A stretch of DNA of 64,000 nt from Limnochorda pilosa (GTDB lineage Bacteria > Bacillota > Limnochordia > Limnochordales > Limnochordaceae): positions 3,038,001-3,102,000 of the forward strand of contig NZ_AP014924.1 of assembly GCF_001544015.1 (NCBI RefSeq), given 5' to 3'. Positions 47,387-53,910 of the stretch are shown here, in pieces. Position 1 is the first letter of the stretch, and every line of letters starts with the position of its first letter. The position numbers were made by a program, and so were the translations under genes. The notes beneath the pieces are model-generated. The model ran no database searches. It was not told the origin of the DNA and was given only the letters and a program-made list of their open reading frames with translations.

Positions 47387-48304
47387 GTGATCCTGGTCAC
47401 GGGTAGTTCGGGGCTGGTCGGGCGGGCACTGGTTCGCCAGCTCATGGCCCAGGGCCTGGCGGTGCGCTCCCTGGTCCACGAGGCGCCGCTGCCCCGCCTC
47501 TCGCGCCTGCCGGGGCCGGGGCCGGAGCTGGCCCACGGGGACGTGCGGGATCCCCTAAGCCTGCGGGCGGCCTGCCGGGGTGCGCAGGCCGTCATCCACC
47601 TGGTGGCGGTGATCCGGGAGAGGAGCGGGGCAGATTACCGCACCATCAACGTGGAGGGGACGCGCAACCTCCTGGAGGCCGCGGAGGCCGAGGGCGTCAA
47701 GCATTTCGCGCTGGTGAGCGCCCTGGGCGCCACCCCCAACCCTCGCTTCGCGTACGCATCCTCCAAGTGGCAGGCGGAGGAGCTCGTGCGCACCTCCCGC
47801 CTCCAGTGGACCATCTTCCGCCCGTCGGTCCTCTTCGGCGACGGCTTCGGCTTCTTCGACCGCATGCTCCAGTCCCTGCGTATGGCGCCCCCAGGCATCG
47901 CCCTCGTTCCCGGAAAGGGCGAGACGCGCTTCCAGCCCCTGGCCGCCGCCGACCTGGCCCGGTGCATCCGCCTGAGCCTGGCGGATCCGGCCACCGCCGG
48001 GGAGACGCTGGAGCTGGGCGGGCCCCAACACCTCACCTACGCCGAGATGCTCCGCCTGCTCCTGAAGGTGACCGGGCAGAAGCGGCTCCTGATCCCCATC
48101 CCCCTGCCCCTGGTCCGGCTGGTGGCCGCCCTGAGCGGCCGCTTCACCCGCAACCCGGTGGTGACCCGCGAGGAGCTCGAGATGCTGGTCCTGCCCAACG
48201 TGACCGACGTCGACGTGATCCCCCGCCGCTTCGGCTTCACGCCCCAGACCCTGGAGGCGGGGCTGAGAGCGCTCTACGGGAAGGAAAGGGGTCGGGAGGC
48301 ATGA
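47387..48304 (+). CDS. NDUFA9/NmrA-like NAD(P)-binding epimerase-type protein
   Basis: 305 residues from GTG 47387 (GGGAGGG upstream). Rossmann motif VTGSSGLVGRALVRQLM at residue 4, then INVEGTRNLLEAAEAEGVKH, ASSKWQAEELVRTS and FRPSVLFGDG, which fit the complex-I NDUFA9-like atypical short-chain dehydrogenases. The Tyr-x3-Lys motif is replaced by YASSKWQ. Family roles include quinone biosynthesis and electron-transfer assembly; substrate unknown. Confidence 0.85.
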   Translation: MILVTGSSGLVGRALVRQLMAQGLAVRSLVHEAPLPRLSRLPGPGPELAHGDVRDPLSLRAACRGAQAVIHLVAVIRERSGADYRTINVEGTRNLLEAAEAEGVKHFALVSALGATPNPRFAYASSKWQAEELVRTSRLQWTIFRPSVLFGDGFGFFDRMLQSLRMAPPGIALVPGKGETRFQPLAAADLARCIRLSLADPATAGETLELGGPQHLTYAEMLRLLLKVTGQKRLLIPIPLPLVRLVAALSGRFTRNPVVTREELEMLVLPNVTDVDVIPRRFGFTPQTLEAGLRALYGKERGREA

Positions 48305-48372
48305 TCCGCCCGGCCCTTTCCCTCGCGAGGCCGTTTCCGTGCAGCGGCTGGCGTCGGGGATTCCTTTCGCCC

Positions 48373-48850
48373 TCATGTTCTTGGCTCTTCGGGCTCGCCC
48401 ATTCCCTCCGGCCGCTCCTCGCGTTGCTGGTCGAGAAAGGGCCTCCACGTGCCGGGCGAAGGTGACGAAATCGTCGAGGTGTTCCCGCAGGATCCGGTGG
48501 ACCTCCCGCAGGTCGACTTCCAAGTACTGGCGGACCACAATGTTACGAAAACCTGCCATGCGGGCGAAGTCACGCGCGAAGCCTCTCGGAAGCACGCCGA
48601 GATCTCCCAGCGCGAGCACGTAGTCCCGGTATTCGTCGCCTACTGTCCCTCCGTGGGCTGCCACGAGGTGGGCGGCCACGTCCAGCACCTTCTGCGCGCA
48701 GAGTTGCAGCCCATGCTCGACCGCCCAGTGCTTCTCCGTCGACGCGGCCAACGCTTCAAGCGAGAGTCCCTGGAGGCCCCGAAGCACCTGCACCGAGTCG
48801 AGCAGGTGTGTCAGGTGTTCCCGAACGACGCTGTCGTCGTGCGTGGCGTT
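48373..48850 (-). pseudogene. hepT: Decayed HepT (DUF86) HEPN toxin
   Basis: The HepT sequence is readable (VVREHLTHLLDSVQVLRGLQ; VLDVAAHLVAAHGG; EHLDDFVTFARHVEA) but has three lesions. No start codon lies in frame before GTG 48793, although similarity extends ~19 codons further. The catalytic RX4H motif reads RNIVVRQY, with Arg (CGC) where His is expected. After HVEA, one extra C in a CCC run (~48442) shifts the frame; the natural end FLDQQREERPEG...PRT lies in the other frame, stopping at 48373-48375. Confidence 0.75.
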
Positions 48851-49296
48851 GGTGAAGGATGACCCCTCCCTGCCCGCAGGCCCGCCGCAAGCCGTTGATG
48901 GAGCCGCCGGTGCTTGAGCTCGCGGAGCGGACGGGTGTCCACGTAGCTCTGGACCGCGCGAATGGTGAACTCCGCCAGGACCCTGGTGTTCCGGGCGAAG
49001 AGAACGTATCCGTCCCGTACGACTCGGTGCGTCATCAGGGGCGACGCTCGGTTCAGGAGAACAAGGTCCACGTCCTCCCGCTTACAGAGGTGCATCAGAT
49101 CCCAGACCATCTGCGATCGATCGAAGCCGTCGACGGCGTCGCGCTCGATCAGGATCGCGAAATCCAGGTCGCTGCCCGCTCGAGCCTGACCCCGGGCCGT
49201 GGATCCGAAGAGAAAAGCCAAAGAGACCTCAGGCCGGTCCCTGAAGTACCGCTCGAGCGCGTCGAGGATCGCATCCGATAGAGGGTGCTCCGCCAT
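48811..49296 (-). CDS. mntA: MntA-like nucleotidyltransferase antitoxin
   Basis: 161 residues from ATG 49296. The minimal nucleotidyltransferase motif is complete: FLFGSTARGQARAGSDLDFA (GSX10DXD) and a later Asp in EDVDLVLLN. MntA AMPylates and silences the HepT RNase in known pairs. The reading frame runs on into the HepT region for ~20 residues (GLRAGRGHPSPTPRTT), longer than typical. It appears functional while its toxin is broken. Confidence 0.85.
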   Translation of the reverse strand: MAEHPLSDAILDALERYFRDRPEVSLAFLFGSTARGQARAGSDLDFAILIERDAVDGFDRSQMVWDLMHLCKREDVDLVLLNRASPLMTHRVVRDGYVLFARNTRVLAEFTIRAVQSYVDTRPLRELKHRRLHQRLAAGLRAGRGHPSPTPRTTTASFGNT

Positions 49297-49428
49297 GGTC
49301 ACGTCGCTCACCGCCTCAGGCGTCCGCACGTCGCCACGTCCGCCTCGTATCCCTGAGGCCATTCTAGCACAGACGACGCCCGAAGAGACCCGATCCGACC
49401 ACCGGCGGACGCCGCCCAACGGGATCCG

Positions 49429-51182: not shown

Positions 51183-51752
51183 ATGGGCCAGATGGGTGGA
51201 CCGGGCACACGGCGCAGCCTCATCGCGGAGCGCCTGCGCGCGGCCGGCGTACCGGTCGCCGGGGCGCAGCTGGCCGAAGGGCTGGGCGTCAGCCGTCAGG
51301 TGATCGTCCAGGACGTGGCCGTGCTCCGGGCGGCCGGAGCCCCCATCCTGGCCACGCCCCGGGGCTACGTCTGGGTGGGCGAGCCGGGCGCCGACCCCCG
51401 TTTCGCCTGCCGCCGGGTGGTGGCGGTGGACCACGCCGCCGGCCAGATCGAGGTCGAGCTCAACGCGGTGGCGGACCTGGGCGGCCGGGTGGTGGACGTG
51501 GTGGTGGAGCACCCCGTCTACGGCGAGCTGCGGGGGCTGGTGATGACCGAGAGCCGGGCCGACGTCCAGGAGTTCCTGGCGCGCCTCCATCAGGGGGGCG
51601 CGGGGCCCCTCCTCACCCTCACCGGGGGGCCCCACCTGCACACGTTGGAGGCCGCCTCCCAGGAGCGCCTGGACCGGATCGTCGCCCGTCTGGAGGCGCT
51701 GGGCTTCCTGATCGAGGAACGGGGCGAGGGATCCGGGCCGGAGCACCCGTGA
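51183..51752 (+). CDS. niaR: NiaR (YrxA) niacin-responsive repressor
   Basis: 189 residues from ATG 51183, GGGGAGGGG 5 nt upstream. An N-terminal winged helix (RRSLIAERLRAAGVPVAGAQ; LAEGLGVSRQVIVQDVAVLR) is joined to a 3H domain with His in VVAVDHAAGQIEV, VVEHPVYGELRG and GGPHLHTLEAAS, the metal and nicotinate site. NiaR represses NAD synthesis or niacin transport genes when niacin is present. Its own promoter carries the tandem repeats. Confidence 0.92.
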   Translation: MGQMGGPGTRRSLIAERLRAAGVPVAGAQLAEGLGVSRQVIVQDVAVLRAAGAPILATPRGYVWVGEPGADPRFACRRVVAVDHAAGQIEVELNAVADLGGRVVDVVVEHPVYGELRGLVMTESRADVQEFLARLHQGGAGPLLTLTGGPHLHTLEAASQERLDRIVARLEALGFLIEERGEGSGPEHP

Positions 51753-51806
51753 GGGATCGTGACATTGGGTGCAAAGCCACCTTCTGGTTGACACGGTCTC
51801 CTTCCC

Positions 51807-51968
51807 CGCTTAGAATTGTCGCAGAAGCACGAGGAACGCTGAATTCCGCCGACGGCGGGAGCGGGGGACCCACAGGACGTTCCCCTCGTGCGAGGGGCAG
51901 GGTGAATCCTGGAAGCCCAGGACGGGTTACTTTTTCAACCCGAACCCGGTAGCTAACCCCGTAAGCGT
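51807..51968 (+). ncRNA. Cyclic di-AMP (ydaO/yuaA) riboswitch
   Basis: All the conserved blocks of the ydaO aptamer are present in order: CGCTTA (51807-51812) pairing with TAAGCG (51962-51967) as P1; GGGGGACCCA (51863-51872); GGTGAATCC (51901-51909); GGGTTAC (51924-51930); ACCCGAACCC (51938-51947); AGCTAACC (51951-51958). This class turns genes off when c-di-AMP is bound. An intrinsic terminator follows at once. TTGACA (51788-51793) and TAGAAT (51811-51816), 17 nt apart, look like a promoter but would start transcription after the P1 strand. Confidence 0.9.
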
Positions 51969-51975
51969 GGAAAGA

Positions 51976-52022
51976 GCGTGCGGTGCCGGCCTGCGTGCCA
52001 GCCGCTCGCTTTTTGCTTTTTT
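51976..52022 (+). terminator. Riboswitch expression-platform terminator
   Basis: GCGTGCGG (51976-51983) and CCGCTCGC (52002-52009) form the outer stem, with GGC/GCC inside, followed by TTTTTGCTTTTTT (52010-52022). It begins 8 nt after the aptamer, as in OFF switches. Confidence 0.85.
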
Positions 52023-52135
52023 CGGGTTCCCCTCGGCCCCGGGCCCGAAGCGACGGAGGCCGTGCGGGAGAGCCGGAGCGTGCGCCGGGCACGGCGAGCA
52101 AGGGCCGGACGATCCCTGACAGGGGGCCATCGTCC

Positions 52136-53566
52136 ATGGCTCGGACCTCTTCACCGGTCACCTCTTCCCCGCCCCGCGCGCCCGGGCGGTCCAGCACCGT
52201 CTCGGCCCCCCGGGGCATGGCCCTCCTGAGCCCCACGGGCCACCTGGGCTTCACGCCCATCGAGGAAGCGAGCTTCCAGGTGGGCGTCGCTCGAGGACCG
52301 GACGCCGTCGTGGCCGACTCAGGCTCCTGCGACATCGGCCCCCACCCCCTGGGCGCCGACGAGCAGGCGAGCCCCCGCACCTGGCAGGAACACGACCTCC
52401 GGCTCATCTTCACCGCCGCCCGCCGCCTGGGCGTGCCCATGATCATCGGCTCCTGCTCGGACACGGGCACGGACCGGGGCGTCCGCCAGTACGCGGCGTA
52501 CCTCCGCCGCCTGGCCGGCGAGCTGGGCGTGCCCCGGTTCCGTATGGCCACCATCTACTCGGACGTGGACCTGGAGGCCCTTCGCCGCCGGGTGGCCGCC
52601 GGCGCCCGGGTGGAAGGCCTCGACGGCCGGCCGCCCCTCACCCTGGACGACATCGACGCCACCACCCACGCGGTGGCTGTGATGGGGGCGGAGCCCATCC
52701 GCGAGGCGCTCCGCCGGGGGGCGGACGTGATCCTGGCCGGCCGGGCCAGCGACGCCTCCCTCTTCGCCGCACCCCTTCTCGAAGCCGGACTGCCTGCCGG
52801 CGTGGCCTACTACGCCGGCAAGGTGCTGGAGTGCGCCTCCTTCTGCGCCGAGCCCTTCGCCGGCAAGGAGAGCGTGCTGGGGGTGGTGGAGCCCGAGCAG
52901 ATCGTGGCCGAGCCCATGAGCGACTACCAGCGGTGCACCCCCACCTCCCTGGCCAGCCACGCCATGTACGAGCGGTTGGACCCCTTCCGGGAGGTCCTCC
53001 CCGGCGGGTACGTGGACATGACCGCCTGCCGCTACGAGGCGGTGGACGAGCGCCGCACCCGGGTGACCGGCTCCCGCTGGGTCCCGGCCGAGCGGTACAC
53101 GGTGAAGCTCGAGGGCGCCGGAAGGGTGGGCGAGCGGGCGCTGATGATCATCGGCATCCGGGACCCCTACACCATCGCCCGGGTGGACGAGGCGGTGGCC
53201 TGGTCCCGCCGGAAGGTGGCCGAGCGGTTCCGGGGGCCGGGGTACCAGGTGCACTACCACATCTACGGCAAGAACGCGGTCATGGGCGAGCTCGAGCCCG
53301 TGAAGGAGATCCGGTCGCACGAGCTGGGCATCGTGGTGGAGGCGGTGGCGCCTACCCGGGATGAGGTAGCCGAGCTGGCCAACCTGGCCGGCCGCAACTT
53401 CATGTACGCCCGCCTCCCCGGGTTGCGGGGCACCGCCGGCGCCGCCGCCTTCCTGAGCGACGAGGTCCTCCCCGCTCGGGCCGCCTACCGCTGGACCATG
53501 AACCATGTCGTCGAGGTGGACGATCCCCTGGAGCTCTTCCGCCTCGAGGTCGAAGAGGTCGGTTGA
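52136..53566 (+). CDS. DUF1446 (AtuA-like) family protein
   Basis: 476 residues from ATG 52136 (AGGGGG 9 nt upstream). The AtuA-like family is recognised by GFTPIEEASFQVGVARGPDA, ADSGSCDIGPHPLG, GVPMIIGSCSDTGTDRGV, VILAGRASDASLFAAPLLEAG and VVEAVAPTRDEVAELANLAG. Relatives are tied to acyclic terpene and branched acid breakdown, but chemistry is unproven. It is followed by DUF4387, its usual partner. It is the first gene after a c-di-AMP riboswitch, an unexpected control. Confidence 0.88.
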   Translation: MARTSSPVTSSPPRAPGRSSTVSAPRGMALLSPTGHLGFTPIEEASFQVGVARGPDAVVADSGSCDIGPHPLGADEQASPRTWQEHDLRLIFTAARRLGVPMIIGSCSDTGTDRGVRQYAAYLRRLAGELGVPRFRMATIYSDVDLEALRRRVAAGARVEGLDGRPPLTLDDIDATTHAVAVMGAEPIREALRRGADVILAGRASDASLFAAPLLEAGLPAGVAYYAGKVLECASFCAEPFAGKESVLGVVEPEQIVAEPMSDYQRCTPTSLASHAMYERLDPFREVLPGGYVDMTACRYEAVDERRTRVTGSRWVPAERYTVKLEGAGRVGERALMIIGIRDPYTIARVDEAVAWSRRKVAERFRGPGYQVHYHIYGKNAVMGELEPVKEIRSHELGIVVEAVAPTRDEVAELANLAGRNFMYARLPGLRGTAGAAAFLSDEVLPARAAYRWTMNHVVEVDDPLELFRLEVEEVG

Positions 53567-53595
53567 GGAGCGCACGGAACGAGGGGGGAAAGGAC

Positions 53596-53910
53596 ATGTC
53601 CAAGCTGGTCGAGCTGGCGTCCACCATCCGGAGCAAGAACGCCGGGGTGGACCACATCACCTTCGACATCCTGTTCTCGGACCCGGCCGCCTACGAGCAG
53701 GTGAAGGCGAGCCACGTGCTCACCCCCGAGCGGGTGGCGGGCCTCTACCACGTGGCTCCCGAGCGGGTGGTCCGCTTCGTCACCTTCGACCCCGCCCGCG
53801 CCATCAAGTTCACGATCCGGCGCGACCAGCCCAGCGGAAGCCCGGGCGAGGGCGACGTGATGGGGAGTCAGCAGTACGCCCCGCTGCTGGACCTGGAGGT
53901 GTCGGGCTAG
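53596..53910 (+). CDS. DUF4387 protein
   Basis: 104 residues from ATG 53596 (AAAGGA upstream). LVELASTIRSKNAGVDHITFDI, VLTPERVAGLYHVAPERVVR and FDPARAIKFTIRRDQPSGSP match DUF4387, which is adjacent to or fused with DUF1446 proteins in many genomes; the two likely form a heteromeric enzyme. It ends overlapping the convergent nadK stop by 4 nt. Confidence 0.88.
   Translation: MSKLVELASTIRSKNAGVDHITFDILFSDPAAYEQVKASHVLTPERVAGLYHVAPERVVRFVTFDPARAIKFTIRRDQPSGSPGEGDVMGSQQYAPLLDLEVSG

Follow-up and report, generated by a model that had tools for sequence, protein, structure and literature searches.

What process would c-di-AMP govern through a riboswitch that stands before genes for a DUF1446 and a DUF4387 protein? 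The question is raised by a locus of Limnochorda pilosa, which was analyzed within a 64 kb stretch of the genome (the window). Riboswitch and gene pair form a unit that spans 51788-53910, the parts of which are listed in Table 1. The genome, 3.82 Mb in one contig, contains two matches to RF00379, the c-di-AMP (ydaO/yuaA) family, and the one at this locus is the sole Rfam match in the window. A preliminary description of this DNA had placed a full ydaO aptamer and a terminator before the pair. Rfam cmscan confirms the aptamer with an E value of 1e-16 and coverage of the full model (1-134); sequence and structure together score 79.0 bits, well above the Rfam gathering score of 38. A chance match is ruled out by this score and by the recurrence of the aptamer upstream of orthologous genes.

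Table 1. Features of the riboswitch and gene-pair unit, with positions counted in the window
Feature	Position	Strand	Evidence
Sigma-A-type promoter, TTGACA-17-TAGAAT	51788-51816	+	11/12 matches, mean in shuffles 0.0; boxes in G002, G011, and G013
c-di-AMP (ydaO/yuaA) riboswitch aptamer, RF00379	51827-51983	+	79.0 bits
Intrinsic terminator	51971-52022	+	Stem kept in five leaders, two compensatory pairs
DUF1446 (PF07287, AtuA family), 476 aa	52136-53566	+	103.7 bits; homologue of 9ERQ chain A
DUF4387 (PF14330), 104 aa	53596-53910	+	126.6 bits; homologue of 9ERQ chain B

The promoter ends about 10 bases 5′ of the aptamer, and the similar boxes in the three related leaders occupy an equivalent position. 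A separate promoter within 52023-52135, which would contradict riboswitch control, was looked for; no second promoter-like site is seen in 51400-52400 and hence none in that interval ahead of DUF1446. The terminator consists of a 12-pair stem (51971-51983/52002-52014) followed by a T-tract, GCTTTTTT, and the 3′ end of the RF00379 match falls within its 5′ arm. A generic terminator scan missed this hairpin because its loop is longer than 8 nt. Across the five orthologous leaders, 100% of the cells in the stem are paired, and two pairs are compensatory (A-U to C-G and A-U to G-C, both in G002). Covariation drawn from five sequences supports, rather than proves, the assignment as a terminator.

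DUF1446 and DUF4387 are the only co-directional genes after the riboswitch, and a convergent NAD kinase gene comes next. The gene map also bears out the earlier observation that no other + strand gene lies between the terminator and DUF1446. The aptamer is accompanied by both an expression platform, the terminator, and a co-directional target. The ATG at 52136 is most likely the start of DUF1446, with the ATG at 52217 as a possible alternative. The unit is flanked by a 3H-domain (NiaR-like) regulator gene on one side and the NAD kinase gene on the other, and an SSF symporter gene is also nearby. This symporter shares 24-28% identity over part of its length with the SSF symporters found beside related pairs elsewhere and was rejected as their orthologue on these grounds. 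At 47558-49419 (-) of the window, adjacent genes for a HepT-like protein (PF01934) and an MNT-type nucleotidyltransferase (PF18765) are arranged like an MNT-HEPN toxin-antitoxin pair.

The preliminary description had suggested a search for ydaO elements upstream of DUF1446 in other genomes. The genome collection includes 14 members of the order; the named relatives in it are uncharacterized Bacillota and Clostridiales MAGs, and RF00379 is present in at least one copy in each of the 41 neighborhood genomes searched. Close DUF1446 orthologues (72-75% identity to the window protein) are encoded in four other genomes of the order (G002, G008, G011, and G013). All four have the riboswitch directly upstream and in the same direction, giving five of five with the window included; the G008 contig begins inside the aptamer. 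Outside the order, RF00379 precedes none of the 19 DUF1446 loci of the same clade (50-61% identity), and it is also absent from 11 more distant loci that were scanned. In G002, G008, and G011, the unit immediately precedes mtnA-like and gltX genes; in the window genome it lies in a different place. Switch and genes have remained a unit at differing locations. The arrangement is therefore old in this order, though it probably goes back to a single acquisition, and all five riboswitch-linked cases may trace to one event. Together with the aptamer, promoter, and terminator, the five close orthologues give good support to the proposal that a ydaO riboswitch controls the pair.

The same description had called the pair poorly understood. 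That view needs revision, because DUF1446 and DUF4387 match both chains of PDB 9ERQ/9EVF (E values of 1.8e-78 and 6.8e-26), deposited as the citramalate lyase subunits CmlA and CmlB; its suggestion of a new target process remains plausible. As for CmlAB, homologous large and small subunits are encoded together. Relatives of about 40% identity occur in glmS-mutL-glmE-methylaspartase-cmlA-cmlB operons of glutamate fermentation, one of which has a pair of fumarase-like genes where mesaconase would stand (apart from glmE and methylaspartase, the genes were named by reading the sequence). Citramalate lyase catalyzes the step after mesaconase in the methylaspartate pathway of glutamate fermentation (PMC8473912), and the operon context of these relatives therefore provides independent support for the deposited function.

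The window protein itself does not group with these enzymes. In a tree, it and its relatives of 50-75% identity are separate from 9ERQ and the glm-operon proteins. Its clade keeps 64 of the 151 residues that are invariant in the cml group, including D66, D87, R203, D206, K229, E232, H275, E279, K324, E326, R342, D343, E387, H395, E396, and H457; the replacements include R86H, Q182V, H226Y, R265Q, and H424Y. With this fraction kept, the substrate, and even the reaction, may differ from those of citramalate lyase. One genome (G084) holds a member of each clade. Methylaspartase and glutamate mutase (PF05034, PF06368) have no match in the window genome, so that the methylaspartate pathway would not supply citramalate, and a role for the pair at the end of this pathway in the window genome was rejected. 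Homology suggests that the pair works as a CmlAB-type enzyme, though not necessarily as a citramalate lyase. A second DUF1446-DUF4387 pair in the genome (G000:C1:2422459-2424517; L086:7460-9518), of 35% identity, has no riboswitch and lies beside ADP-ribosylglycohydrolase-like genes, a sugar-type ABC importer, and a LacI-type regulator.

A clue to the substrate comes from the gene order in relatives. In G002, the order is SBP-DppB-DppC-OppD-OppF-[ydaO]-C26-[ydaO]-DUF1446-DUF4387-mtnA-like-gltX, such that the peptidase C26 gene has a ydaO element of its own, as it also does in G008. The window genome carries an orthologous SBP-DppB-DppC-C26 block at 1.5 Mb, beside gltX and without a riboswitch; its substrate-binding protein, of 514 aa, is encoded at G000:C1:1508078-1509622. 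Within the order (14 genomes), a C26 orthologue (58-100% identity) is confined to the five genomes that have the close DUF1446. Outside the order, the neighbors of the clade include C26, Opp/Dpp importers, SSF symporters, TRAP and dicarboxylate transporters, and amidohydrolases, and genomes of the G080 type have the order DUF1446-DUF4387-SBP. A ydaO element also lies directly upstream of the homologous SBP operon in G003, G014, and G023, and in the latter two this operon ends with a gene of the lactate-racemase family (LarA-like, PF09861). The riboswitch is repeatedly attached to a theme of uptake and breakdown. The substrate-binding proteins are of the oligopeptide type (family 5), so the cargo of the importer is likely a peptide or an amide. 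In two genomes of another family (L182:2087-9033 and L183:1326-8308), ydaO stands before Opp-type SBP-permease-ATPase genes in an operon that has a PF09861 gene at its end.

These data allow a model of the switch to be proposed. The genome encodes a diadenylate cyclase domain (PF02457, at G000:C1:3471344), from the presence of which c-di-AMP synthesis is predicted. Transcription would start at the promoter just ahead of the aptamer. At high c-di-AMP, the aptamer would fold and transcription would stop at the terminator ending near 52022; at low c-di-AMP, RNA polymerase would read through into the DUF1446-DUF4387 operon. The layout of promoter, aptamer, and terminator fits such an OFF logic, and c-di-AMP binding ends transcription in known ydaO switches (PMC9337991, PMC9960051). 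No antiterminator common to all leaders was found in partial or half-leader folds of the orthologous leaders, so the switching step, including its OFF direction, rests on this precedent. DUF1446 and DUF4387 would form a CmlAB-like heteromeric lyase, most likely splitting a citramalate-like 2-hydroxy-acid intermediate. That intermediate would derive from a small peptide or amide that is taken up by the oligopeptide-type ABC importer and then hydrolyzed by peptidase C26. We assign a probability of roughly 0.6 to this model as a whole, in which c-di-AMP turns off expression of a CmlAB-like lyase that serves the salvage of a peptide or amide.

The pair could instead be a genuine citramalate lyase, converting citramalate to acetate and pyruvate, with c-di-AMP gating the final reaction of a catabolic route of the glutamate or itaconate type. 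The strong homology of both subunits to CmlAB and the placement of relatives in complete methylaspartate operons speak for this assignment, which would also fit the link between c-di-AMP and glutamate homeostasis in B. subtilis (PMC7857571). However, the clade is separate from 9ERQ and the glm-operon proteins, fewer than half of the invariant residues are kept, methylaspartase and glutamate mutase are absent from the window genome, and the presence of both clades in G084 argues for different jobs. A genuine citramalate lyase is thus considered unlikely. Somewhat less likely still is that the pair makes or degrades an osmolyte or a wall-derived compound, as the preliminary description had offered. 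Repression at high c-di-AMP would suit osmolyte supply, glycine-betaine ABC importers (L071, L076, and L079) are among the ydaO targets of these genomes, the other ydaO target of the window genome is an octopine-dehydrogenase-family gene with a penicillin-binding-protein-like gene behind it, and alanine-racemase-family and amidohydrolase genes are among some neighbors of the clade. However, the pair has no consistent link to any gene for osmolyte biosynthesis, and its recurrent partners, namely hydrolases and transporters of the peptide, SSF, TRAP, and dicarboxylate types, are catabolic in appearance. The context of the relatives is one of peptide import and amide hydrolysis, and no support was found for an osmolyte or wall compound as the substrate.

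Other alternatives concern the leader. It might be a relic, with the pair expressed constitutively or silent, but the promoter is conserved in four complete leaders and the aptamer and terminator stem in five, the stem with compensatory changes, which makes a relic highly improbable. The aptamers linked to DUF1446 do share a peculiarity, namely a U in all sequenced copies where 33 of the 34 other distinct aptamers that were collected have C. In the window, this is U51950 within 51945-51958, in the motif CCCG-N-C/U-AGCUAACC, which is also present in the orthologous leaders. The consistency of this substitution could indicate a variant with a different ligand or affinity, but no other strongly conserved block is altered, the score clears the cutoff by a wide margin, and a single substitution can be neutral, so that a functional variant seems improbable. 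An extended proposal has the same low probability: that these aptamers constitute a distinct c-di-AMP subclass, defined by the C-to-U change and shifted in affinity or ligand, that coordinates an undescribed salvage pathway of Opp importer, C26 amidase, and CmlAB-like lyase. Were it true, c-di-AMP would govern carbon catabolism, beyond ion and osmolyte balance.

Further ydaO targets were observed in these genomes. The second ydaO element of the window genome (G000:C1:3417038-3418449; L069:9039-10450) precedes an octopine/nopaline-dehydrogenase-family gene (PF02317) and then the penicillin-binding-protein-like gene, and an arrangement of ydaO before an opine-dehydrogenase-like gene is also found in G001, G003, and G005. 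SulP-family anion transporter genes follow ydaO in several relatives (L017, L019, L026, and L072).

The OFF-switch model for a salvage lyase adds the CmlAB-like pair, and in relatives also a peptide importer and an amidase, to the c-di-AMP regulon of a lineage that has been little studied. The stress-signaling molecule c-di-AMP seems to control a catabolic step with which it had not been associated before. As a riboswitch, the element is unremarkable within its known class; its kind of target appears to be new. Literature searches on DUF4387, CmlAB, 9ERQ, and a ydaO-DUF1446 link returned nothing relevant; the main surveys of ydaO targets lay outside these searches, and novelty of the target is therefore not proven. 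The importer, the C26 amidase, and the lyase offer a concrete route to identifying the pathway, and the locus opens a test of direct c-di-AMP control, via RNA, of a carbon-catabolic step.

Comparison with known systems delimits the unit on each side. AtuA of acyclic terpene utilization shares the Pfam family PF07287, to which the window DUF1446 belongs with a score above the cutoff of 22.8; however, DUF1446 scores far below a paralogue in the same genome (G000:C1:3391473, 470), which adjoins biotin-carboxylase-like and carboxyltransferase-like genes, as read from sequence. The window locus lacks the acyl-CoA carboxylase genes of an atu-type cluster and has the genes for the 3H-domain regulator, the NAD kinase, and the SSF symporter instead; a classical atu cluster was rejected for want of atu gene neighbors. 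CmlA/CmlB (9ERQ, 9EVF; AtuA-family and DUF4387) are closer, with both subunits in the same order and homologous over their full length. In contrast to CmlA/CmlB, the window pair belongs to a sister clade outside the glm-operon group, has many invariant residues replaced, and is ydaO-controlled in a genome without the methylaspartate pathway. The riboswitch resembles other RF00379 members in its full aptamer match, with a promoter directly upstream and an intrinsic terminator directly downstream, and differs from other c-di-AMP aptamers in the U at one nearly invariant C. Whereas known ydaO targets are mainly K+, osmolyte, or amino-acid transporters and wall hydrolases, the target here is a CmlAB-like enzyme pair.
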